Assembly: GCF_027587175.1 (NCBI RefSeq)
Contig: NZ_JAPCID010000013.1
Coordinates: 1 to 64,000, forward strand
Origin: Solirubrobacter deserti
Lineage (GTDB): Bacteria > Actinomycetota > Thermoleophilia > Solirubrobacterales > Solirubrobacteraceae
Direction of reading: 5' to 3'
Length of the DNA: 64,000 nt
Positions 3,665-19,270 of the stretch are shown one piece after another. Position 1 is the first letter of the stretch. Each line of letters starts with the position of its first letter. A program made the position numbers and the translations under genes. The notes beneath the pieces are model-generated. The model had not been told where the DNA came from and did no database searches. It was given only the letters and a program-made list of their open reading frames with translations.

Positions 3665-6112
3665 ATGCGCTTCCGCCCCCTGCTGACGCTCGCTGCAGTT
3701 TCGACACTGATGACATTCGCCGCCGCTCCGGCGGCCAACGCGAACTGGCTCGGGCTTCCCGGGCTGAACTCCGGCGCTGCCAACTGGGTACGCGAGTACG
3801 CCACGGACAGCACGCTGAGCACGATGTACGCCGCGACCGAGGACGACGGCGTCTTCCGCTCGGTCACCAACGGCCTCACCTGGGAGGCGTTCAACGCCGG
3901 CCTCGCCGGCGTCCCGGGCGCCATGAACGTGCGCACGGTCTTCACCAGCGGTACGACGGTCTACGCCGGCACCACCGCCGGCCTGTTCAAGTCGGTCGCC
4001 GGCGGCGCGTTCCAGCCCGTTGCGCAGGGGCCTGAGCAGGACCCGAAGAACCCGAAGAAGCTCAACCAGGCCGTCCAGGCCGTCTTCACCGGCGCCCTGC
4101 CGGGAAGTCCGATGCTCGCGGCGGTCGCCAGCGGCGGCGTGTACCGCTCCACGGACGGCGGCGCGACGTGGCAGAAGCCCGCCCCGGGCAACGGCATGCT
4201 GGCCTCCGAGACGGTGTGGAGCCTCGGCTCGTTCAAGGACAACGGTGCCCTGATCTACGCCGCCACGCAGAGCGGGATCTACCTCTCCGTCAACGGCGGA
4301 TCCACGTGGACGCTGTCCAACGACGGCATCACCGGCCAGACCATGCGCGCGTGGGCCGACGAGAAGTACCCGAACATCTACTACGCGGGCACCACCGACG
4401 GCCTGTACCGCTCGATCAACGCCGGCCTCACCTGGACCCGGATCAGCGAGGACACGACGGTCCGCGCGATCACGCAGTTCAACGGCGTCGAGAAGAAGCG
4501 CCTGTACATCGCCACCGACAACGGCGTGATCGCCGGCCAGACGGACCTGCACCCGGTGCCGGGCAAGCCGACGTGGCGCAAGCTCCCGCTGGACGGCCTG
4601 AGCCCCAACTCGGAGATCTGGGGCCTGAACAGCTACATCAACACGCCCGGCACGCTGCTCGCCGGCACGCACGGCGGCGGCGGCAAGGTCTTCACGATCA
4701 CCCCGCCGGTGTGGGCCGGCGTGCTGCCCACGATCAACGACACGACGCCGCACAAGTCCCAGAAGCTGTGGGTCACCTCCAACGGCACGTGGGCCGGCTC
4801 CCCGACCGAGTTCACGTACCAGTGGGAGGACTGCACCGAGGCCAAGTGCGTCCCGATCACGGACGCGACCGACGCCACGTTCGTCGTCCCCGCCAAGGAC
4901 CGCAAGTACCGCGTCGTGGTGACCGCGCACAACGACTTCCCGAACAGCCCGCTGCTGCCGGCCGAGAAGGCGAGCCTCACCACCGGCGCCGCGGCCGCCG
5001 AGCCCAACTCGCTGCCCGGTGACATCGGCGGCACCAGCACCGGCTCGATCAAGCTCACGCCCGCCGGCCAGCCGCAGCCGGGCGTGGTCCTGACCGCGCA
5101 GGACTGGAAGTTCAACAACCCGAACGCGACATCGGTCAGCTGGCAGTGGTACCGCTGTGTCGGCGTCAACAACTGCGAAAAGCTGCAGGGCGCTGACGAG
5201 ATCAACTACACGCTCACTGACCAGGACGTGGGCAAGTACCTGTGCTTCAAGGCGACCGGCCACAACGCGTCGGGCTCCAAGACGCTGGACTGCTCGGGCC
5301 AGACGACGGAGGTCCTCGCGCCGGACCCGAAGCAGACCGGCCCGCAGTCGATCTCGGGCAACGCGTGGGTCGGCCACACGCTGCTGTCGGGCTCCGGCAC
5401 CTGGGCCTACTCGGGGATGCGCTTCGAGCGCCGCTGGATGCGCTGCAACGCCGAGGGCGGCAGCTGCGAGTACATCTACAACGAGAAGAGCTCGACCTAC
5501 GTGATCAAGCCTGCTGACCTCGGCAAGCGCATCAAGGCCGAGATCACCGCTGACTCGAACATCGCCAACAAGAAGCCGGACCCGGCCTTCGTCTACACGG
5601 CGCTGACCGCGGTCGTGACCGAGGCGCCGCCGGAGCCGGAGCCCCCGGCCCAGCAGGGCGGCGGCGGGAACGACAACGGCGGCGGTGGCGACGGCACGGG
5701 CGGCGGCGGCACCGGTGGCGGCGGCACGGGCGGCGGCGGCACGGGCGGCGGCCAGACCCCGCCGCCCCCGCCGGGCGACAAGATCGCGCCGGTGCTGTCG
5801 CTGAAGTCCGGCGCCCCCACCTCGATGAAGGTCACGCTGTCCGAGGCGGCCTCCCTGTCGGTCGAGTACCAGCGCGTCCGCGCGGGCCGCAAGGCCGGCA
5901 AGAAGTGCAAGGCCGGCGGCAAGAAGGGCTTCAAGTGCACGGTCGTGACGAAGGTCGCGACGGTGAAGGTGGCCGCGGCCGCCGGCTCGGCCACGGTCAA
6001 GCTCCCCAAGCGCAAGCTCGCGAAGGGCGAGTACCGGCTGGTGGTCACCCCGGTCGACGCCGCCGGCAACAAGGGCGCGGCGAAGACGGTGAAGTTCAAG
6101 GTCAAGAAGTAG
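3665..6112 (+). CDS. secreted multidomain protein with BNR/sortilin-type repeats and Ig-like domains
   Basis: 815 aa with a signal peptide (MRFRPLLTLAAVSTLMTF, cleavage after ANA near residue 27). Residues ~55-310 hold five BNR-like blades of the form G-V/L-Y/F-R-S-x-N/D-G-G-x-T-W (around residues 61, 105, 158, 203 and 246), as in sialidase/sortilin/photosystem-assembly propellers. Residues ~350-640 contain three Ig-like beta-sandwich repeats, each with a YQWxxC/WYRC core and two Cys. A Gly-Thr linker follows (~665-697), then a Lys-rich C-terminal domain (~705-815) ending FKVKK. There is no sortase motif or transmembrane anchor. The blades lack the Asp-box context and active site of a sialidase, so a binding or adhesion role is more likely than catalysis; this is inference. 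Confidence 0.85.
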   Translation: MRFRPLLTLAAVSTLMTFAAAPAANANWLGLPGLNSGAANWVREYATDSTLSTMYAATEDDGVFRSVTNGLTWEAFNAGLAGVPGAMNVRTVFTSGTTVYAGTTAGLFKSVAGGAFQPVAQGPEQDPKNPKKLNQAVQAVFTGALPGSPMLAAVASGGVYRSTDGGATWQKPAPGNGMLASETVWSLGSFKDNGALIYAATQSGIYLSVNGGSTWTLSNDGITGQTMRAWADEKYPNIYYAGTTDGLYRSINAGLTWTRISEDTTVRAITQFNGVEKKRLYIATDNGVIAGQTDLHPVPGKPTWRKLPLDGLSPNSEIWGLNSYINTPGTLLAGTHGGGGKVFTITPPVWAGVLPTINDTTPHKSQKLWVTSNGTWAGSPTEFTYQWEDCTEAKCVPITDATDATFVVPAKDRKYRVVVTAHNDFPNSPLLPAEKASLTTGAAAAEPNSLPGDIGGTSTGSIKLTPAGQPQPGVVLTAQDWKFNNPNATSVSWQWYRCVGVNNCEKLQGADEINYTLTDQDVGKYLCFKATGHNASGSKTLDCSGQTTEVLAPDPKQTGPQSISGNAWVGHTLLSGSGTWAYSGMRFERRWMRCNAEGGSCEYIYNEKSSTYVIKPADLGKRIKAEITADSNIANKKPDPAFVYTALTAVVTEAPPEPEPPAQQGGGGNDNGGGGDGTGGGGTGGGGTGGGGTGGGQTPPPPPGDKIAPVLSLKSGAPTSMKVTLSEAASLSVEYQRVRAGRKAGKKCKAGGKKGFKCTVVTKVATVKVAAAAGSATVKLPKRKLAKGEYRLVVTPVDAAGNKGAAKTVKFKVKK
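5657..5751 (+). repeat. in-frame (GGGG-T/D/N) linker repeat
   Basis: A run of GGC codons interrupted by ACG/GAC/AAC encodes GGGGNDNGGGGDGT and then four units of GGGGT or similar. It joins the Ig-like region of the secreted protein to its C-terminal domain and looks like a flexible linker. The repeated 15-bp DNA unit could change copy number by slippage. Confidence 0.8.
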
Positions 6113-10127: not shown

Positions 10128-10475
10128 CTACGGCGCCGTCGTCGACAGCGTGAAGGTCAGCGTCTTGGCGTACGTGCCCGTCCGCAGCGGGTCCGTGCGC
10201 TTGATCAGCTGCTTGAACCGCACGTCGACCGTCTCGTTGGACACCGGAGCGGTCCAGGCGGCCTTCGAGAACTCGACGCGCAGCGGCTCAGCGAGCGTGA
10301 ACGCGCCGTTGGCCAGGTGGCCCGGGGCCGACACGCTGAGCGCGGCGTTGCCGGCGGTGCTGACCACGGTCGCGGTCGTCTCGGCCGTGTAGTCCTGCTC
10401 GACACCCGGGACGAACGGGTCGAACCTCGCGGCGGCGCCGAGCGTCAGCGCCAGCGTCGCCGGCACGCTGCCGCC
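10128..10475 (-). repeat. copy A of shared C-terminal WxL-like domain
   Basis: Codes for the last ~115 residues of the downstream S15 peptidase. Landmarks are SVPATLALTLG, FDPFVPGVEQDYTA, VSTAGNAALSVSAPGH, NGAFTLAEPLRV, AWTAPVSNE and the terminal DPLRTGTYAKTLTFTLSTT. It is closely similar to the ends of the 12928 and 17405 proteins. Confidence 0.9.
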
Positions 10476-12803
10476 GACCGGGACGTCGACCGGCACGTCG
10501 TGGCGGACGACGACCTTGAACGTCTTCGGCGCCGACGCGTTGCCGTTGGCGTCCTTGGCGACACAGGTCACCGTCGTCGTACCGACCTGGAACTTGGAGC
10601 CCGAGGCCGGGTCGCACGTGACGAGCGGGCTGGGGTCCTCGTTGTCGGTCGCGGTCGGGAGGGTGTAGGTGACGGCCGCGCCGCTCGCGTCCGTGGTGCC
10701 CACGAGCACGTCGGCCGGGACGTCACCCAGCGTCGGGGCGACCGTCTCGGCGTCCGTCAGGCCGGCCGAGGCCGCCGCGGCGTAGCCGCCCTGGATCGGC
10801 AGCGTCACCTTGGAGGTGCGCGTGTCCAGCGTCACGTTGACGTTGTCGTTACCGCCGGCCGCGCCCATGAAGCTCGTGTTCGAGCCGCCGATGACGATGC
10901 CGATCTGATGCCCCGCCTTGAAGATGTGCTCGGTGGGGATCGTCGGGAACTTGAAGCGGTTGGTCTCGCCGATCTTGACCGCCGACGCGTTCGCGAACCA
11001 CAGCGTGTCGCGGTTCGAGGAGTCGAGGATGCCGCGCGACACGCGCCATTGCGCGACGTTGGTGGTCGGCTTGCTGATGTTCTGGTAGCACGCGTGCTCG
11101 ACCTCACGGGCCGGCGCGGTGCATGGGTCGCCGACGTTCGCGTTCTGGCAGGTCACGCCGTCGGACGACACGCCCCAGCAGGAGCGGGCGGCGACGAGAT
11201 CGACGCCCTCGCTGCTGCGCGAGGTCTGGGTGAAGTTCTGCCGGGTGCCGTTCGCGTTCAGCACGCCGTAGTCGACGATCGTGACGCTGACGTTGCCCTG
11301 CGTCTTATCGAGCGCGGCGGCGACGTCGGCGAGCGGCGTGCCGGACAGGCGCACGTCCTTGGTCAGCGGACGCGAGAGGAACACGCGACGGTTGGTCTGC
11401 GCGCCGGTGGGCGAGTTCATGAGCGTGTTCTCGCTGCTGTTGTTGCGGGCGAGATACGTCAGCGAGTCCGCCGCGCCGCCGCCGGCCAGGCCGCCGAGCG
11501 TGCCGGCCGCGGCCGGGTTGTCGGTCGCGCGCAGGTACAGGTCCACGTCCTGCGTGCCGTCGATCGGCCAGCTCCCGTAGTCCTTCCAGACGTCCTTTTC
11601 TTCTTCGACCGTGACCGGCTTCTCGCTCATGATCCCGTTCTGGACGCCGTAGAGCCAGTGGTCGAACCAGCGGTGCAGGGTGTCGACCCACTCGGCGCGG
11701 CGCGACTCGAACGGGTCCTCGTGGCCCGCACGCAGCAGCCACAACTTGGTCGGGACGTTGTTGGCTCGCAGCGCGCGCCACCAGACGTCGACCTGGTCCA
11801 TGCGGACGTTGTCGTCCTGGAAGCCGTGCGCGATGAGGACGGACGCCTTGACCTTGCCCGCATTCTTGACGTAGTCGCGCTGGTCCCAGAACGTGTTGAT
11901 GTCGCCGTGCCGGTCTCCGTCGCCGGTGTCGATCTGGTTGTCGTCGTCGATCTCCGCCTGGTTGATGGGCGTGCAGACCGCGCGGCGGTTCGGCAGGTTG
12001 TAGACCGCGCCCGCGTGGCCGGTCGGCGCCGTGCCGGGGAACGTCACGAGGTTGTTGAGGTAGGCACCAGGATAGTTGGTGCTCTGGACGGTCCCGCCGT
12101 TGCGCGAGTACGTGTACCACTGGGAGATCGCGCTGATCGGGACGATGGTCTTCAGGCCCTCGACGCCCGTCGCCGCGACGCCGTTGGCCAGCGTGCCGTC
12201 ATAGGACTTGCCGATCATCGAGGACGCGCCGTTGTGCCAGGCGGCGGTCACTTCCTCGGAGGTGAGGCTGGTGGACTTGTAGGCCTTCACGCGGCCGTTG
12301 AGCCAGTCGACGATCGACTTCTCGCCGGCGATGTCGCCGGTGCCGCCGTGCATCGGGCAGCCGTGCACGGACATGCCCGTGCCGTTCATCTGGCCCAGCA
12401 CGTACGCGTAGCCGCGCGGGACGAAGTAGTTGTCGTAGAACAGCGGCCAGCGGTCGTTGACCCCGTCGCCGTCCCAGTCGGCCATGCACTGGCTCTCGGC
12501 GCCGCGGCAGAGCGTCGTGTAGTACGGGCTCGGGTCGATGATCGCCGGCATCTTGTTCGTCGCCGACGCCTCGGCGGGCCGGATGATGTCGACCGTGACC
12601 CAGTCGTCGGCGCCGTTGCGGTCCTGGTCGATGCCGGGCTGCGGGATGAAGACCCGTTCCTTGACGGCCTTCGTGTAGTCGTAGACGGCCTTGGTCTTGC
12701 CGTTCTCCAGAACGGGACCCTGCGCCTGCGCGGCGCCCGTCCCAACCGCGAGCATCGCCAGCGCCAGCACGCCCGCGATCAGCCCTCTCACCCCAATCCT
12801 CAT
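10128..12803 (-). CDS. secreted S15-family X-prolyl dipeptidyl-peptidase with HYR and WxL-like C-terminal domains
   Basis: 891-aa exported peptidase. A signal peptide ends near AAQAQ (residue ~28). The S15 alpha/beta-hydrolase core holds the nucleophile motif GKSYDGT (Ser near residue 200), the acid region HGFQDDNVRMDQ and the His region RAGHEDPFESRR. A beta-rich X-Pro peptidase C-domain follows, then an HYR-type domain (DNEDPSPLVTCDPASGSKF ... VTCVAKDANGNAS, ~690-775), and finally the ~115-residue domain shared with two other proteins here. An Asp/Asn-rich insert (DWDGDGVNDRW) resembles a calcium-binding loop. The ATG at 12803 follows GGAGGG. It would act outside the cell, removing X-Pro dipeptides or hydrolysing related esters/amides. 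The next upstream gene is a close paralogue. Confidence 0.9.
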   Translation of the reverse strand: MRIGVRGLIAGVLALAMLAVGTGAAQAQGPVLENGKTKAVYDYTKAVKERVFIPQPGIDQDRNGADDWVTVDIIRPAEASATNKMPAIIDPSPYYTTLCRGAESQCMADWDGDGVNDRWPLFYDNYFVPRGYAYVLGQMNGTGMSVHGCPMHGGTGDIAGEKSIVDWLNGRVKAYKSTSLTSEEVTAAWHNGASSMIGKSYDGTLANGVAATGVEGLKTIVPISAISQWYTYSRNGGTVQSTNYPGAYLNNLVTFPGTAPTGHAGAVYNLPNRRAVCTPINQAEIDDDNQIDTGDGDRHGDINTFWDQRDYVKNAGKVKASVLIAHGFQDDNVRMDQVDVWWRALRANNVPTKLWLLRAGHEDPFESRRAEWVDTLHRWFDHWLYGVQNGIMSEKPVTVEEEKDVWKDYGSWPIDGTQDVDLYLRATDNPAAAGTLGGLAGGGAADSLTYLARNNSSENTLMNSPTGAQTNRRVFLSRPLTKDVRLSGTPLADVAAALDKTQGNVSVTIVDYGVLNANGTRQNFTQTSRSSEGVDLVAARSCWGVSSDGVTCQNANVGDPCTAPAREVEHACYQNISKPTTNVAQWRVSRGILDSSNRDTLWFANASAVKIGETNRFKFPTIPTEHIFKAGHQIGIVIGGSNTSFMGAAGGNDNVNVTLDTRTSKVTLPIQGGYAAAASAGLTDAETVAPTLGDVPADVLVGTTDASGAAVTYTLPTATDNEDPSPLVTCDPASGSKFQVGTTTVTCVAKDANGNASAPKTFKVVVRHDVPVDVPVGGSVPATLALTLGAAARFDPFVPGVEQDYTAETTATVVSTAGNAALSVSAPGHLANGAFTLAEPLRVEFSKAAWTAPVSNETVDVRFKQLIKRTDPLRTGTYAKTLTFTLSTTAP

Positions 12804-12871
12804 GCAACCCTCCGTTGCCGTAGACCCGTGCCGTCCTCCGTTGACGGCGGATCAGGCAACGCTACGGCCTT

Positions 12872-12912
12872 CCACGCGCAAGCGCCCTGGACTTTGGACG
12901 CATTGCGCGTGG
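12872..12912 (-). terminator. inverted repeat between the two S15 genes
   Basis: CCACGCGCAA (12872-12881) and TTGCGCGTGG (12903-12912) are perfect 10-bp arms with a 21-nt spacer, 15 bp beyond the stop of the upstream S15 gene. It may act as a terminator or processing site. No T-tract is present and the spacer is long, so an operator is possible. Confidence 0.4.
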
Positions 12913-12927
12913 ATGTGCCTCAACGTG

Positions 12928-13275
12928 CTACGGCTGCGTGGTGCTCAGCGTGAAGGTGAGCGTTTTGCTGTAGGTGCCGGTACGGAGCGGATCGTTGGCG
13001 CCGATGGCCTGGGTGAACGTGACGTCCACCTCGTCGTTGGAGACCGGGCCGTTCCACGTCGACTTCTCGAAGGCGACCTGGAGCGGGTTGGCGAGCGAGA
13101 ACGCGCCGTTGGTCATGCGGCCCGGGTCCGAGACCGACAGCGTCGCGTTGCCCGCGGTGCTGATGACGTTCGCCGTCGTGGTCGCCGTGTAGTTCTGGGC
13201 GACGCCCGGGATGAACGGGTCGAACGTCGCCGCGCCGCGCAGGCTCAGCGACAGGGTCGCCGGCACGGTGCCGCT
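12928..13275 (-). repeat. copy B of shared C-terminal WxL-like domain
   Basis: Codes for the last ~115 residues: TVPATLSLSLRG, FDPFIPGVAQNYTA, ISTAGNATLSVSDPGR, NGAFSLANPLQV, TWNGPVSNDEVDV and DPLRTGTYSKTLTFTLSTTQP. It aligns without gaps to copy A. Confidence 0.9.
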
Positions 13276-15342
13276 GACCGTGGTCTGGGGATCGGTGAAG
13301 GCGCCCGCGTCGAACAGCGCGACCGAGCCGCCGACGATCGGCAGCGAGATCTTGCTCGCCCGCGTGTCGATCCGGATCTCCTGCGCCGGGCTGATCGCCG
13401 ACCCCACGTACCCCGGCGTGTCCGGCGTGCCGATCGTCCGGAACTCGCCGTACAGGTTCGCGGTCACGATGATCGAGATCCGGTTGCCGGCCTTGAAGAT
13501 GTGCTCGGTCGGCTGCAGCGGGATCGTGTAGTCGTTGAACTGGCCCGGGACGACCTCCCCGGCCTTCGCGTCCGCGTACCAGTACGAGTTGCGCTGGCGC
13601 GAGTCCAGCGTGCCGCGCGTGACGCGCCACTGCGCGACGTTGGTGGAGATGTTCTTGCTGACCTCGAGGTAGCACGCGTTGTCGACCCCGATGCCGGTGG
13701 TCGTGCACTCGGCGCCGAGCGTCGGGCACGCGTTGTCGTCCGTGCTGGTCGCGCCCCAGCACGTGCGCTTGGTGGTGTCGGTCACGCCGTCCTGGTTGCC
13801 GCCGCGCAGGATCTGCGTCGTCGTCCCGATCTCGGCGACGACCGCCGAGAGGTTGCTGCGCTCGAGGCCGAGCGCGGCCCGCAGCTTGAGCACCGCGGTG
13901 CCCGAGAGCCGGACGTCCTTCTTGAGCGGCGGCGTGATGAACACGCGGCGGTTGGTCTGCTGGCCCTCGGGCGTGCCCATCAGGGTGTTCTCGGAGATGT
14001 TGGCGCCCGTGTTCTGGAACGTCAGCGTGTCCGCCATGCCGCCGGACATGCCGCCGATCGTGCCGGCGCCGGCCGGGTTCGCCCCAGCGCGCAGGTACAC
14101 GTCGGTGTTCTGCGTGCCCGGGATGGGCCAGTCCGCGTAGTTGCCCCAGACGTCGGGCGCGTCCTCGATCGTCACCTTGGGTTCGCCGTCGATGCCGTTG
14201 GCGACGCCGTGGAGCTCCTGGTCGAACCAGCGGTGCAGCGTGTCGACCCAGACGGCCCGGCGCTGCTCGAACGGATCGACGTGGCCCGTGCGCAGGAGCC
14301 ACAGCTTCGTCTTGACGCTGTTGGCCTTCAGCGCGTCCCACCACAGGCCGACGTGATCCATGCGGACGTTGTCGTCCTGGAAGCCGTGGACGATGAAGAC
14401 GGACGCCTTGACCTTGTTCGCGTCCTTGTTGTGGTCGCGGTCGCGCCAGTACTCGTTGATGTCGCCGTGCTCGTCGCCGTCGAGCTGATCCATCGCGTCG
14501 CGCACCGGCCCGCACAGGGCCTGGCGGGTGACCGGCCCGGTGGGCGTCTGGACGAGCGGCGGCTTGACCCCGACGTCGTCGCGGACGCCGGCGATGCCGT
14601 TCGAGAGACCGCTGGGGTAGTTGTTGTTGTGACGAATACCCGCGGTGCGCGAGTAGTTGTACCAAGCGGAGATCGCGCTGATCGGGACGATCGTCTTGAG
14701 GCCCTCGACGCCGGTCGCGGCGACGCCGTTGGCGAACGTGCCGTCGTAGGACTTGCCGATCATCGACGAGGAGCCGTTGTGCCAGACGGCGGTGTTGGCC
14801 GTGGTGCCGTCCACGGACGTGTAGCCGGGCACGCGGCCGTTGAGCCAGTCGATGACGGCCTTGAAGCCGGCGATGTCGGTCGGGCCGCCGTGGTTGACGC
14901 AGCCCGTCGAGAACGCAGTGCCGAGCGAGTGGGCGGCGATGAACGCGTACCCGCGCGGGACGAAGTAGTTGTCGTAGTAGAGCGGGAAGCGGTCGAGCGT
15001 CCCGTTCTCGTTGGTGATGATCCGCTGGCCCTCGTTGCCACGGCCGTTCGCCGTGTAGTACGGGCTGGCGTCGATGATCGCCGGAACCTTGACGGTCGGC
15101 CCGGACTCCTTGGGCCGGACGATGTCGATCGCGATGCGGTCGATCACGCCGTTGCTGTCGGTATCGGTGTTCGCCACCGGGATCCAGACGCGTTCGCGGG
15201 TCGCCTGCACGTAGCTGAAGACCGGCGCGGTCTTGCCGTCGGCGCCGATCGTCACCTGCTGCGCCTGCGCGACGCCGCCTCCCGAGCCCAGCGTCGCAAG
15301 CGTCAGCGCGCCCGCGACGAGGCCCTTCACCCCAATTCTCAT
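12928..15342 (-). CDS. secreted S15-family X-prolyl dipeptidyl-peptidase (paralogue) with WxL-like C-terminal domain
   Basis: 804 aa from the ATG at 15342, which has GGAGGG five bases upstream; in-frame residues before it are not signal-like. The signal peptide (MRIGVKGLVAGALTLATLG) is nearly the same as in the downstream paralogue. The core keeps GKSYDGTFANGVAATGVEGL with the nucleophile Ser, HGFQDDNVRMDHVGLWWDAL and RTGHVDPFEQRRAVWVDTL. It lacks the HYR domain of its neighbour and passes straight from the S15 beta domain to the shared ~115-residue C-terminus. The two genes are tandem on one strand with 124 bp between them and look like a local duplication followed by loss or gain of the HYR module. 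Predicted site of action is the cell surface or medium. Confidence 0.9.
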   Translation of the reverse strand: MRIGVKGLVAGALTLATLGSGGGVAQAQQVTIGADGKTAPVFSYVQATRERVWIPVANTDTDSNGVIDRIAIDIVRPKESGPTVKVPAIIDASPYYTANGRGNEGQRIITNENGTLDRFPLYYDNYFVPRGYAFIAAHSLGTAFSTGCVNHGGPTDIAGFKAVIDWLNGRVPGYTSVDGTTANTAVWHNGSSSMIGKSYDGTFANGVAATGVEGLKTIVPISAISAWYNYSRTAGIRHNNNYPSGLSNGIAGVRDDVGVKPPLVQTPTGPVTRQALCGPVRDAMDQLDGDEHGDINEYWRDRDHNKDANKVKASVFIVHGFQDDNVRMDHVGLWWDALKANSVKTKLWLLRTGHVDPFEQRRAVWVDTLHRWFDQELHGVANGIDGEPKVTIEDAPDVWGNYADWPIPGTQNTDVYLRAGANPAGAGTIGGMSGGMADTLTFQNTGANISENTLMGTPEGQQTNRRVFITPPLKKDVRLSGTAVLKLRAALGLERSNLSAVVAEIGTTTQILRGGNQDGVTDTTKRTCWGATSTDDNACPTLGAECTTTGIGVDNACYLEVSKNISTNVAQWRVTRGTLDSRQRNSYWYADAKAGEVVPGQFNDYTIPLQPTEHIFKAGNRISIIVTANLYGEFRTIGTPDTPGYVGSAISPAQEIRIDTRASKISLPIVGGSVALFDAGAFTDPQTTVSGTVPATLSLSLRGAATFDPFIPGVAQNYTATTTANVISTAGNATLSVSDPGRMTNGAFSLANPLQVAFEKSTWNGPVSNDEVDVTFTQAIGANDPLRTGTYSKTLTFTLSTTQP

Positions 15343-15437
15343 GAACCCTCCGTCGGTGGACCTGCTCCTCCGTGAGCAGACATACGGGAGGGCGCCGCGG
15401 AAGTCCACCCGCGGGGCGTGGAGACGCCTAAACGGCG

Positions 15438-16076
15438 CTAGTCGTCAGCCGGGGGCGGAGCGAAGACGATCTTCTTGAGCTCGTCGACGACCTTGCCGCC
15501 GAGCCGCAGCGACGTCATGAAGCCCTCCTGGCCGAGCTCGCCTGCGTCGAGGCGGTTGCGCAGCTCGGTCAGCGGCGCGCGATCGTCCTCGGCGACGCTG
15601 TCCTTGCCGGCCTCGACGAGGATGATGTGGCGCGCGCGGCGGTGCGCGGCCGCGAGCCGGACGTAGTGCTCGCGCTCCTCGGCGGAGAGCGTCGCGAGCG
15701 GGATCACGACCGAGGCGCCCGCGGCGAAGCGCTTGGCGACCGCGGCGTCCAGCAGCGCCTGGGCCTTCGCCTCGATCTCGTCCTCGGCGACCTTGCCCAC
15801 GAGCAGCGTCTTGACCTTCTCGAGCGAGAAGATCGTGCTCTGCTCCTCGATCACGCGCTTGACGAACTTGTCGCGCAGCTCGTGGTCGGCGCACGCGACG
15901 ACCAGCAGCGAGCCGGGGTTGTAGCGCATGCGGAACGCGGGGGAGAGCACCCGCCCGCGGACCGAGACGTCCTGCTTGCGCGGCGGCCGGTCGGGCTCGC
16001 CTGCGCGGCGCGGACGGTCCGAAGACCAGCCGCCCCGCTCGTTATCACCGATCTTGACGCTGCGCGGCTGGGACAT
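15438..16076 (-). CDS. degenerate polynucleotide-kinase-like (AAA_33) protein, unknown role
   Basis: 212 aa with no signal peptide. The first ~48 residues are polar and Arg-rich, probably disordered. From NPGSLLVVACADHELRDKF onward the order of elements resembles P-loop polynucleotide kinase/zeta-toxin folds: a first strand, a helix, a VGKVAEDEIEAKAQALLDAA helix, then AVAKRFAAGASVVIPLATLS and EEREHYVRLAAAHRRARHIILVE. The Walker A Gly-Lys-Ser/Thr is absent (ADHELRDKF sits in its place), so ATP binding by the normal route is unlikely. I infer a pseudo-kinase; the relationship is by pattern, not by a run comparison. It lies between a S15 peptidase and the EAL-HDOD gene on the same strand. Confidence 0.7.
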   Translation of the reverse strand: MSQPRSVKIGDNERGGWSSDRPRRAGEPDRPPRKQDVSVRGRVLSPAFRMRYNPGSLLVVACADHELRDKFVKRVIEEQSTIFSLEKVKTLLVGKVAEDEIEAKAQALLDAAVAKRFAAGASVVIPLATLSAEEREHYVRLAAAHRRARHIILVEAGKDSVAEDDRAPLTELRNRLDAGELGQEGFMTSLRLGGKVVDELKKIVFAPPPADD

Positions 16077-16107
16077 GCGGGGTATTAAACGACCCCGTCC
16101 GGCGCGG

Positions 16108-17325
16108 CTAGTTAGAAAGTTGGACCAGGGCCCCGTCGGTCCAGTCCAGCGCCTCGCCGTACGCGTGCGCGATGTCGACGAGGCTCACCCCGGTCTGGAC
16201 GCACTTGTCGAACTCGCCGGCCTCGTAGGCCAGCACGCCCGCGAGCACCTTGCCCTCCGGCCCCTCGTGCGCGCCGAGCGCGCGCGTGGTGCGCTCGTCG
16301 AAGGGCAGCTCGCCGAGCAGGTCGGGCATGCGCATGCCCATCAGCGAGTCCACGACCGAGAAGAGGCCGACGGTGAACCCGCGCTCGGCCTCGGCGCCCG
16401 CGGTGCGCGCCGCCACCAGCTCGCACAGGCGTGCGCGCAGCAACCCGGTCTCCAGCAAGTGGCTGGGCCGGTCGTTGACGCCCGCGAGCGCGAGCAGCGC
16501 GGCCCAGCGGCGGACGGTGGCCGTGCCGAGCGCCATCAGCGCCTGGCGGATCGTGCCGACGGGGTGGCGGCCGCCGTAGAACGCCGAGTTCGCGAGCTTG
16601 ACGAGCTTCAGCGAGAGCCCCGGGTCCTCGGCGATCACGCGCTCGAGCTGTTCGAAGGTGGCGGCCTCGCCGGCGGCCAGCATGGAGAGCGCGCGCAGGC
16701 GGTAGGTCGGGACGGACGCGCCCTGCACGATGACGGGCTCGGCGAAGTACTGGCCCTGGAAGGCGTCGAACCCGAGCCCGCGGCAGAAGCCGTAGACCGC
16801 GCGGGTCGGGACGCCGTTGGCGATCACGGCCAGCCCGCGCCCGCGGGCGGCGTTGACGTCGGCCTCGATCTCCTCCTCGGAGCGGCCCGCGACGTCGATC
16901 TTCACGCTCTCGGCCAGGTCGAGCAGCGCGTCGTCCGCGCGTCCGGCGCGAAAGCTGTCGAGCGCGATCCGGAAGCCCGCGTCGCGGGCCTCGCGCAGCA
17001 CCGCCACCAGCTCGGCGTCGGCGTGCTCGTCCGACGGGAGCTCGAGGACGACCCGCGCCGGGTCGAGCGGAAGCGGCGAGACGAGCACGAGGAACTCGCG
17101 CGTGACGTCGACGTGCGCCGGACGCTCACCGACGAGCCTGTGCAGCCCGATGTCCGCGATCGCCTGCGCCAGCACGCTCGCCGTGGCCTCGTGCGGGTGG
17201 GCCTCCGGCGGGGTCAGCAGCTCGAAGCCGACGATCCGCTCGACATTGTCGAGGATCGGCTGGCGGGAGACGACCACCGCGGCGGCGCCCTCCGCTTCCC
17301 TGGCAAAACGAGTGCTGTGGGACAT
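16108..17325 (-). CDS. EAL-HDOD (YuxH-like) signalling protein
   Basis: 405 aa, cytoplasmic. Residues ~15-205 are an EAL domain and ~210-400 an HDOD domain (EDPGLSLKLVKLANSAFYG, TIRQALMALGTATVRRWAAL). The EAL part keeps GFELL and FQGQYFAEP, but the catalytic DDFGxG is replaced by LDSFRAG and the AEGVE motif by IANGVPT. It is therefore probably not a c-di-GMP phosphodiesterase and may act as a sensor or scaffold, as in other YuxH-type proteins. The ATG at 17325 lies 30 bp before the terminator of the ThuA gene. A 12-bp palindrome TCGACCGGTCGA lies 11 bp upstream of the start. Confidence 0.9.
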   Translation of the reverse strand: MSHSTRFAREAEGAAAVVVSRQPILDNVERIVGFELLTPPEAHPHEATASVLAQAIADIGLHRLVGERPAHVDVTREFLVLVSPLPLDPARVVLELPSDEHADAELVAVLREARDAGFRIALDSFRAGRADDALLDLAESVKIDVAGRSEEEIEADVNAARGRGLAVIANGVPTRAVYGFCRGLGFDAFQGQYFAEPVIVQGASVPTYRLRALSMLAAGEAATFEQLERVIAEDPGLSLKLVKLANSAFYGGRHPVGTIRQALMALGTATVRRWAALLALAGVNDRPSHLLETGLLRARLCELVAARTAGAEAERGFTVGLFSVVDSLMGMRMPDLLGELPFDERTTRALGAHEGPEGKVLAGVLAYEAGEFDKCVQTGVSLVDIAHAYGEALDWTDGALVQLSN

Positions 17326-17361
17326 GAACCACCTATCGACCGGTCGAGAAGTGGCCAGTGT

Positions 17362-17394
17362 AGGGTGCGGACCCCATCAAGCGGTCCGCACCCT
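17362..17394 (-). terminator. 12-bp hairpin after the PKD-ThuA gene
   Basis: AGGGTGCGGACC (17362-17373) and GGTCCGCACCCT (17383-17394) form a perfect 12-bp stem with a 9-nt loop. It lies 10 bp beyond the stop of the minus-strand ThuA gene and before the next minus-strand gene, as expected for a terminator, though there is no T-run. Confidence 0.75.
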
Positions 17395-17404
17395 TGATCC
17401 CCGA

Positions 17405-17755
17405 CTACGGGTTGCTGGTCGCCAGCGTGAACGTGAGCGTCCGGCTGTAGGTGCCGGTGCGCAGCGGGTCGGTCCGCTTGATCAGCTGGTTGAAGGTCAC
17501 GCCGACCTTCTCGTTGGAGACCGGGGCGCTCCACGCGGTCTTCGACAGCGCGACGCGCAGCGGCTCGGCGAGCGTGAACGCGCCGTTGGTCATGTGGCCA
17601 GGATCGGACACCGTGAGGCTCGCGTCACCCGCCGTGGAGACCACCGACAGCTGCGACGTCGCCGTGTAGTCCTGCTCGACGCCGGGGACGAACGGCTCGA
17701 ACGCCGCCGGCGGGCCCTCGATCGCGAGCGACAGGGTCGCGGGGACCGAGCCGCC
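17405..17755 (-). repeat. copy C of shared C-terminal WxL-like domain
   Basis: Codes for the last ~116 residues: SVPATLSLAIEGP, FEPFVPGVEQDYTA, VSTAGDASLTVSDPGH, NGAFTLAEPLRV, AWSAPVSNEKVGV and DPLRTGTYSRTLTFTLATSNP. Compared with copies A and B it has a single extra residue early on. Confidence 0.9.
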
Positions 17756-19177
17756 GACGGTCTCCTCGTCCTGCACCTGCACGATGCCGCAGGCGTCGTC
17801 CGGGACGACGCCCGCCGCGACCTTCAGGCCGCCCAGGACGTGCCCGAGGAAGACCGGGTCCAGATAGGAGGCCTCGGTGTGGCCCATGCCCGTGTACCAG
17901 GAACGGCCGCCGTCGAAGCGCCGGCACCAGGAGATCGGATGGTCGTCGTCGAGCGTGTTGCCGTCGGCCTCGTTGTAGGTCGTCTCGTCCATCGTCAGCA
18001 GCACGTGGACGCCGCTGGTGCGGGCGCTGTAGTCGATGCCGCCGCCGTTGACGACCGGGTTGATCGGGCTCTGGTAGTTGTACCACTCGTCAACACGTGT
18101 CCACCGCGCAGGGATTCCCGCGTTGGTGACGTGGTCGGCGTCCTCGTTGACGACGGTCGCGGTCGGCGTGCCGGTCGGATGGTTGCGGAAGTACGCGCCC
18201 ACGAGCTGCCCGTACCACGGCCACGCGTACTCGGTGTCGGCTGCGGCGTGGATGCCGACGTAGCCGTTGCCGGCGCGGATGAAGCGCTCGAACGCCTCCT
18301 GCTGGGCGACCGCGGGCAGCGTGTCACCGGTCGTGGAGAGGAACACGACCGCGTCGTAGCGGGCCAGGAACGCGTCCGTGAACAGCGTCGGCTCCTCGAT
18401 CGCGTCGACGTTGAAGTCGTTCTCGGTGCCGAGCTTCTTGATCGCCGCGATGCCCTCGTCGATCGAGGAGTGGCGGAAGCCCGCGGTGCGCGAGTACACC
18501 AGCACGTTGAACTTCTTGGACGGATCGACCTCGGGAGCGAGCACGGTGACCGGCACGACGCGGTTGGTCACGCCGCCGAACGGGTCGGTGACGCGCAGCG
18601 TGGGGGCGTGGGTCCCGGGCTGCGCGAAGGTGAACGAGCCTTCACGGCCCGCGGTCTCGAACGTGCCGTCGCCGTCGAGGTCCCACGCGTACGAGACGGT
18701 GTGGCCGTCCTGATCGTTGGCCGTGGCGGTGAAGCTGGTCGTCAGCGGCGCGATGCCGGCCGACGGCGTGGCGGTCGCGACCGAGATGCTGGGGTTGCGG
18801 TTGGCCTGGACCACGACCGGCAGCTCCGCCGTGGCGGTGCTCGTACCGTCGGACACCGTGACCTTCACCGTGCGCGTCGCGGCGGCGAGGAAGGTGTGCG
18901 TCGGGTTCTGCGCGGTCGACGTGTTGCCGTCACCGAAGTCCCACGCGTAGGTGAGCGTGTCCCCATCGGCGTCGGCGCCGGTCGCGGTGAACGCGATCGG
19001 CACACCGACGCGCACGTTGCCGGCCGGCGTTCGCCCGGCCGTGACCGTGGGCGGCGCCAGGGCGGCGGCCGCCTGCTCCTCCGAGGTCCCTGTGGCGTGT
19101 GCCACGCCGCTCCATCCGGAAGCGACCAGCATCGACGCCGACATCGCGGCGACCGCTGCTCTCATGCACCGACCCAT
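17405..19177 (-). CDS. secreted PKD-ThuA-domain protein with WxL-like C-terminal domain
   Basis: 590 aa from the ATG at 19177, preceded by AAGGAG at 8 bp. The signal peptide is MRAAVAAMSASMLVAS with cleavage near AHA. Two PKD domains follow (TYAWDFGDGNTSTAQNPTHT and SYAWDLDGDGTFETAG). Residues ~205-455 are a ThuA-like (trehalose-utilisation/GATase-like) domain: KFNVLVYSRTAGFRHSSID, FLSTTGDTLP, GNGYVGIHAAADTEYAWPW and SWYTGMGHTEASY. The shared ~115-residue C-terminal domain ends the protein. ThuA-like domains occur in secreted glycoside-degrading proteins of actinobacteria and Bacteroidetes, but their reaction is poorly known. It is divergent from the GntR gene. Confidence 0.88.
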   Translation of the reverse strand: MGRCMRAAVAAMSASMLVASGWSGVAHATGTSEEQAAAALAPPTVTAGRTPAGNVRVGVPIAFTATGADADGDTLTYAWDFGDGNTSTAQNPTHTFLAAATRTVKVTVSDGTSTATAELPVVVQANRNPSISVATATPSAGIAPLTTSFTATANDQDGHTVSYAWDLDGDGTFETAGREGSFTFAQPGTHAPTLRVTDPFGGVTNRVVPVTVLAPEVDPSKKFNVLVYSRTAGFRHSSIDEGIAAIKKLGTENDFNVDAIEEPTLFTDAFLARYDAVVFLSTTGDTLPAVAQQEAFERFIRAGNGYVGIHAAADTEYAWPWYGQLVGAYFRNHPTGTPTATVVNEDADHVTNAGIPARWTRVDEWYNYQSPINPVVNGGGIDYSARTSGVHVLLTMDETTYNEADGNTLDDDHPISWCRRFDGGRSWYTGMGHTEASYLDPVFLGHVLGGLKVAAGVVPDDACGIVQVQDEETVGGSVPATLSLAIEGPPAAFEPFVPGVEQDYTATSQLSVVSTAGDASLTVSDPGHMTNGAFTLAEPLRVALSKTAWSAPVSNEKVGVTFNQLIKRTDPLRTGTYSRTLTFTLATSNP

Positions 19178-19270
19178 ATAGCTTGCTCCTTGCCATTGAC
19201 TGGACACGCCTCGTGCAAAGGTCGGCCGGCCGCGACAGGTCTACGTGCGAGATGATACCTGCTGTCGGAC

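Follow-up and report, generated by a model that had tools for sequence, protein, structure and literature searches.

WxL domains (PF13731, IPR027994) of Firmicutes form the extreme C-terminal module of secreted proteins, carry two Trp-x-Leu motifs, fold as a beta-sandwich and have a partner protein, WxLIP, with a C-terminal transmembrane helix. Their genes cluster as small WxL, large WxL, and WxLIP. Their length is given as 160-190 amino acids (aa) (PMC9772566) or about 120-190 aa (PMC5817068), and their distal motif as Y-x3-(L/I/V)-T-W-x-L-x3-P (PMC5817068). Also described are non-covalent binding of WxL domains to peptidoglycan (PMC5817068), the display of two reporters by one lactococcal WxL anchor (PMC6700490), and a model in which the sandwich of the WxL domain has a gap that a strand of WxLIP fills (PMC10599100). 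Here we analyze a C-terminal domain of about 117 residues (hereafter the tail) carried by three enzymes encoded in a 64,000-nucleotide stretch of Solirubrobacter deserti DNA (the window; C93:726909-790908 in coordinates of genome G000). The tail is likely a WxL-like surface-retention domain, non-covalent in its attachment and expanded in this genus into a general display tag.

Occurrence and Cargo of the C-Terminal Domain

The tails of the window belong to two S15 peptidases and a PKD-PKD-ThuA protein (Table 1). In pairs they are 62-70% identical over 121 aligned columns, although the S15 and ThuA passengers are of different Pfam families. Neither Pfam nor NCBIfam names a family in the tail at E ≤ 10, while both name the remainder of each protein. 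The genome contains 126 matches to the tail, which merge into 105 places, so the likeness among the three window proteins, already pointed out in a preliminary description of this DNA, is not due to chance. The strings quoted there were nearly right: the second S15 peptidase reads PVSND in place of PVSNE, and the ThuA protein has VSTAGDA and ends in TLTFTLATSNP.

The tail reaches the stop codon in all 105 copies, in 104 of them exactly and in one a codon short. Two copies, L034 (a 64-aa frame) and L112 (a short match), were left out of further counts; both end in the terminal motif. Among the other 103, the length is 113-144 aa (median 116), and the last residue is always Pro, 13 residues past an invariant Tyr. 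The relatives considered, the best 80 of 331 confirmed stretches, make up 78 loci, with 112 of 116 profile matches stopping exactly at the stop codon, three within two residues of it and one 35 short. These best 78 loci all come from genomes named Solirubrobacter (S. taibaiensis, S. phytolaccae, Ca. S. pratensis, and S. soli). Six genomes of the genus, that of S. deserti and five congeners, contain 107, 109, 147, 70, at least 150, and 149 matches, the best 150 candidates of each genome being scored. In each Solirubrobacter genome, about a hundred otherwise varied proteins carry the tail as a single module at the extreme C terminus. Few genomes outside the genus have it: of 150 searched in the order, 10 contain the tail, three of them Solirubrobacter, with at least 27 matches each in this order-wide search, and the other seven have one to three copies.

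The passengers of 93 of the 103 proteins were surveyed with Pfam using the top 25 families of each scan, and all counts are lower bounds; the three window proteins, among the ten outside this census, were scanned separately. The most frequent families were ThuA (at least 15), M14 carboxypeptidase, GSDH, CBM_6, and PKD (at least 13 each), DUF1349 and GH43_C2 (at least 11 each), and 3-keto-disaccharide hydrolase (at least 8). Rhamnosidase (at least 5), S15 (at least 4, besides the two of the window), amidase (at least 4), Metallophos (at least 3), and GH10 (at least 2) were also present. The open frames span about 260-2,780 aa. According to a heuristic rule, 95 of the 103 proteins have a signal-peptide-like start, compared with 4 of 103 when the starts were shifted into the mature part. 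The census and the signal-like starts bear out the earlier proposal of a constant tail on differing secreted enzymes.

The passengers form 33 single-linkage clusters, and just 20 of 103 tails have their nearest counterpart on a homologous passenger. Median tail identity is 54% among passengers without detectable homology and 49% among homologous ones. The tail moves independently of its cargo.

In two other genera, the N-terminal regions of lone tailed proteins (L218:6035-7327, E 0.0056; L219:7813-9099, E 4.4e-5) resemble HtaA and may represent haem-binding cargo; a WxLIP-like gene lies some 1.3 kb from each of the two. The window also encodes an 815-aa protein (3665-6112, plus strand) with a signal-like start, YCF48/sialidase-like repeats, and a Gly-rich linker; read by eye, its C-terminal region is different and lacks the tail.

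Table 1. Tailed proteins of the window, their C-terminal domains, and the triad locus of the same genome.
Feature	Position	Strand	Description
S15-1 peptidase	10128..12803	-	891 aa; PF02129, PepX_C and HYR, then C-terminal tail
S15-1 tail	10131..10478	-	About 116 aa; C-terminal end YAKTLTFTLSTTAP; C93:737039-737386
S15-2 peptidase	12928..15408	-	826 aa; PF02129 and PepX_C, then C-terminal tail
S15-2 tail	12931..13278	-	C-terminal end YSKTLTFTLSTTQP; C93:739839-740186
PKD-PKD-ThuA protein	17405..19207	-	600 aa; C-terminal tail; start codon uncertain, alternative 10-14 codons further in
ThuA-protein tail	17408..17758	-	AlphaFold2 model including 5 upstream residues; predicted local distance difference test (pLDDT) score 94.1
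Equivalent of WxL motif 1 in ThuA-protein tail	17609..17623	-	ASLTV; from alignments and residue counts
Terminal motif of ThuA-protein tail	17408..17449	-	Y-x3-[LVI]-T-F-T-L-x4-P; equivalent to distal WxL motif
Own-genome triad	C93:400.2-402.4 kb; 5188-7402 of L282 (C93:395000-408000)		Small tail protein at 6047-6553 of L282

Relationship to WxL Domains

A terminal motif of the form Y-x3-[LIV]-T-[W or F]-x-L-..-P is common to the tail and the Firmicutes WxL domain, as are the extreme C-terminal position on secreted proteins, the beta-sandwich, and the WxLIP partner. In the 103 copies this motif takes the form Y-x3-(L/V/I)-T-F-T-L-x4-P, with Y, L, and P invariant. It is equivalent to the distal WxL motif with Phe for Trp, as proposed in the preliminary description, but is one residue longer ahead of the closing Pro, the Tyr-to-Pro spacing being 13 in the tails and 12 in all 14 Firmicutes WxL sequences. 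At the first motif most tails read D-A-T-L-S-V, and the DxRGTxxG turn of WxL domains is absent. A Trp just before PVSNE had also been pointed out. It is present in most copies (W 73, Y 23, F 6, and L 1 in 103); however, it aligns with neither WxL motif and was rejected as a WxL residue.

The connection to WxL runs through actinobacterial intermediates. Among the weak matches of the tail profiles in other actinobacteria are small proteins of a single domain, with signal-like starts; within the order, these match tail profiles with E values of 1.2e-9 to 7.9e-6. The hhalign E values in this work refer to single comparisons, and the hmmsearch E values for related-locus, Firmicutes-locus, triad, and bridge matches refer to small local sets of open reading frames (ORFs). 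Ten of the 12 aligned small proteins have W-x-L in place of the A-x-L of the tail, the exceptions being L246 and a Streptomyces protein. A profile of the small proteins (A6) matches the Solirubrobacter tails (hhalign, 98.0% over 125 columns) and, with both motifs in register, Firmicutes WxL (85% over 128 columns). In no comparison did any of 100 column-shuffled controls attain a real score. The control families PKD, HYR, PepX_C, and ThuA gave at most 4.5%, with small alignments of 17, 2, 5, and 18 sequences, and WxL-type against WxLIP-type profiles gave at most 14.8% over 1-47 columns. One bridge protein (L299:1363-1905) is matched by both the small-protein profile (E 3.7e-10) and the Firmicutes WxL profile (E 1.1e-8) among 215 ORFs. 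Through this chain of small proteins, though not by direct comparison, homology of the tail to the WxL superfamily is well supported.

WxL domains recognizable by Pfam are themselves sparse in the phylum: among 198 sampled genomes, WxL exceeds the Pfam cut-off in three and WxLIP in 12. These clusters have one or two matches each, and a WxLIP-like gene adjoins the Pfam WxL match in five of the six such actinobacterial loci examined. The actinobacterial WxL relatives at L299:613-1197, L296:904-1518, and L297:795-1436 retain a DxRGTGxGW first motif but no longer have the Trp of the second (TITETI, TITTTL, and EITVSV), as if the Trp of motif 2 had been lost first.

WxLIP-Like Partner Genes

The gene beside the small WxL-like proteins was recognized as WxLIP-like, first by eye, at loci other than L247-L249 and L271, and then by profile. 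Its profile (A5) matches Firmicutes WxLIP (DUF916-DUF3324, PF06030) in hhalign (98.2% over 243 columns), and homology of the partner to WxLIP is likewise well supported. Like the E. faecium WxLIP proteins of structures 9i1y and 9i25, the partner comprises two beta domains and adjoins WxL-like genes.

Outside the genus, 16 genomes have a tail-like match; in 13 of them the stretch searched contains a WxLIP-like gene, and the other three have partial matches only (E 0.002-0.01). Profile A5 was built from nine loci, eight from those 13 genomes and one from Streptomyces, and profile A12 includes three sequences of the S. deserti genome, so these match by construction. Independent A5 matches come from G006, G010, G107, G142, G308, and Solirubrobacter, the tail-like match of G308 being weak (E 6.7e-4). 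With a query including the three own-genome sequences, four or five WxLIP-like genes were found in each of six genomes of the genus. In all six, a small tail protein is encoded between two WxLIP-like genes; the open frame of this small gene is longer than one domain in two genomes, where its start is uncertain. At L177 and L150, the gene directly after that of a large tailed protein encodes a WxLIP-like protein whose C-terminal segment is hydrophobic. Relatives of the tail are encoded beside WxLIP homologues.

Other arrangements were also seen. Three tandem small WxL-like genes precede one WxLIP-like gene at L270:838-2478, and a Streptomyces plasmid (L230:6848-8443) carries a pair of small WxL-like and WxLIP-like genes, both annotated as hypothetical proteins.

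Predicted Structures

The tail of the ThuA protein is predicted to form a confident beta-sandwich (predicted template modeling score 0.81). Its best matches in the Protein Data Bank (PDB) are chaperone-usher pilins, namely CfaB (Foldseek E 1e-3, template modeling score (TM) 0.49, root-mean-square deviation (rmsd) 13.2) and the Csu pilus subunit 7zl4 (VIA Z 8.3, 105 residues aligned, rmsd 2.7). TasA (Foldseek E 0.16), TLP-1b (Z 6.5), the PapD-like CEP192 domain, and other Ig-like folds follow. By sequence, comparison of the tail with the PDB gave chance-level PDX1.2 matches only, a further sequence search gave E values of 0.6 or worse, and nothing in the viral fold library matched at E ≤ 0.001.

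The partner encoded at L177, modeled from four sequences (pLDDT 73), shows two beta domains and a C-terminal helix (residues 248-277), another feature in common with WxLIP. Its best VIA match is 9i25 chain C, the E. faecium WxLIP with a long WxL (Z 15.5, rmsd 3.8, 210 residues). The Vpr fibril domain (Z 12.6), PapD-like chaperones (Z 11-12.4), and other Ig-like domains rank below.

In the chaperone-usher pairs Csu, CFA/I, and Fim, the pilins therefore resemble the tail model and the PapD-like chaperones the partner model, although their sequences are not significantly similar (the small-protein profile matches PapK at E 1.3). A pilin of this type is an incomplete Ig fold that a donor strand completes. 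To our knowledge, no usher or outer membrane is to be expected in Actinomycetota. The likeness of the tail to a pilin subunit and of the partner to a chaperone, taken with the published WxLIP strand in the WxL gap, suggests that the modeled pair may work by donor-strand complementation. In the accessible text of the modeling study (PMC10599100), the words "chaperone" and "donor" do not occur. Among the papers listed by the literature search, none combines "WxL domain" with "donor strand"; in the collection searched, two papers mention WxLIP and no publication for 9i25 was found.

Function of the Domain and Alternative Explanations

By analogy with the Firmicutes WxL domains, we infer that the tail binds peptidoglycan and displays its passengers, and that it probably keeps these enzymes on the cell surface rather than letting them drift off. 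The tailed enzymes would be exported, and the tail would fold as an incomplete pilin-like beta-sandwich. The WxLIP-like protein could then donate the strand that completes and stabilizes it. The tail, alone or with this partner, would bind peptidoglycan non-covalently, and the enzyme would thereby be held at the cell surface.

A number of observations weigh against a WxL-like assignment. In the 103 copies, the column of the motif 2 Trp contains F 97, L 4, Y 2, and W 0, and that of motif 1 contains A 94, T 5, S 3, M 1, and W 0. No match to PF13731 at E ≤ 10 and none to PF06030 was found anywhere in the S. deserti genome. Compared directly, the tail and the profile of 14 Firmicutes WxL sequences gave 4.0% over 17 columns in hhalign, no better than the tail with WxLIP (4.9%), and a mixed profile gave 18%. 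The most distant small homologues are weak when taken alone (E 2.7e-5 to 0.0026 with a wider profile). On the side of the partner, A5 at E ≤ 1e-3 finds the WxLIP of just 4 among 11 Firmicutes loci and fails to match the sequences of 9i1y and 9i25, and the two triad partners of S. deserti (262 and 265 aa) have no C-terminal membrane helix by eye. A WxLIP-like gene was found at only 4 of the 78 Solirubrobacter tail loci, within the stretch searched, and none of the WxLIP-like matches of the genome lies inside the window. The best Z of the tail model, about 8, is no stronger than a common fold arrangement can give, and the 50 best structural matches shown for it do not include the WxL chain of 9i25, whose absence proves nothing.

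With no Trp at either motif, no PF13731 match, a weak direct profile match, and a Tyr-to-Pro spacing of 13, the tail is not a WxL domain by definition; its 113-144 aa fall short of the 160-190 aa given in one source and overlap the roughly 120-190 aa given in another. The earlier suggestion is supported in part. Taken to the letter, as a WxL domain, it finds no support; as a WxL-like module, it is supported by the homology chain and the conserved WxLIP-like partner.

The beta-sandwich of the tail model and the many sugar- or polymer-active passengers (ThuA, GSDH, CBM_6, rhamnosidase, and GH10) would also suit a module similar to a carbohydrate-binding module (CBM), bringing the enzyme to its polymer instead of anchoring it to the cell. 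We consider this unlikely, as every copy is the only tail of its protein and stands at its end, closing with an invariant Pro, and the tail occurs as well on M14 and S15 proteases, amidases, and Metallophos proteins, whose substrates differ. Moreover, the CBM_6 passengers already have a binding module of their own, and a WxLIP-like gene adjoins the low-copy relatives of the tail. The ranking of chaperone-usher pilins, TasA, and TLP-1b among the structural matches, and the resemblance of the partner to PapD-like chaperones, raise the alternative of a polymerization module, by which the tailed proteins would form surface fibres through donor-strand exchange, like chaperone-usher pilins or TasA. 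However, a C-terminal tail on open frames of such a length range would make an unusual fibre subunit, the superposition on CfaB is poor, a Z near 8 may reflect a common arrangement, and WxLIP itself outranks the PapD chaperones as a match for the partner; such a role seems very unlikely.

A constant C-terminal domain with conserved last residues on many cargoes could, finally, be a secretion signal for a dedicated exporter, as in the C-terminal domain of the type IX secretion system (T9SS-CTD) or a sortase-like system, processed after export. A sortase-type signal, which combines LPxTG, a hydrophobic stretch, and a basic tail, was rejected, since none of the 105 tails contains LPxTG and a hydrophobic 19-aa stretch occurs in one of 103. 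NCBIfam has no match in the tail; two of its models for sortase-dependent M36 proteins align below the cut-off, and only with the PKD region of the ThuA protein. Signal-like starts are present at the N termini. An exporter signal of this kind is highly improbable.

The surface-retention reading can be taken further. WxL/WxLIP and tail/partner could be the monoderm counterpart of the pilin/PapD-chaperone pair, which in Solirubrobacter would have become a general docking code displaying more than 100 exoenzymes. We put this forward tentatively, as a possibility about which there is more doubt than confidence.

Pfam-detectable WxL and WxLIP already occur, sparsely, in the phylum. As far as the searches reach, what is new is the size of the expansion, a form without the motif tryptophans, enzymes as cargo, and the parallel with pilins and their chaperones; no joint treatment of WxL and Solirubrobacter was found in the literature collection searched. 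The copy number of about a hundred per genome compares, for example, with nine WxL clusters in L. plantarum WCFS1 (PMC10599100).

Overall, each genome of a soil genus encodes about a hundred proteins with an unnamed domain that Pfam and NCBIfam do not recognize. Were the tail to act as a WxL-like anchor, it would indicate the site of action of these enzymes, and WxL biology would extend from adhesins of gut Firmicutes to a degradation surface of soil actinobacteria. High-GC Gram-positives would also gain a candidate display tag, and donor-strand complementation in WxL/WxLIP would become open to test. Should the parallel with pilins and their chaperones be true as well, a few-copy adhesin system would have been turned into a general docking code on one cell surface.
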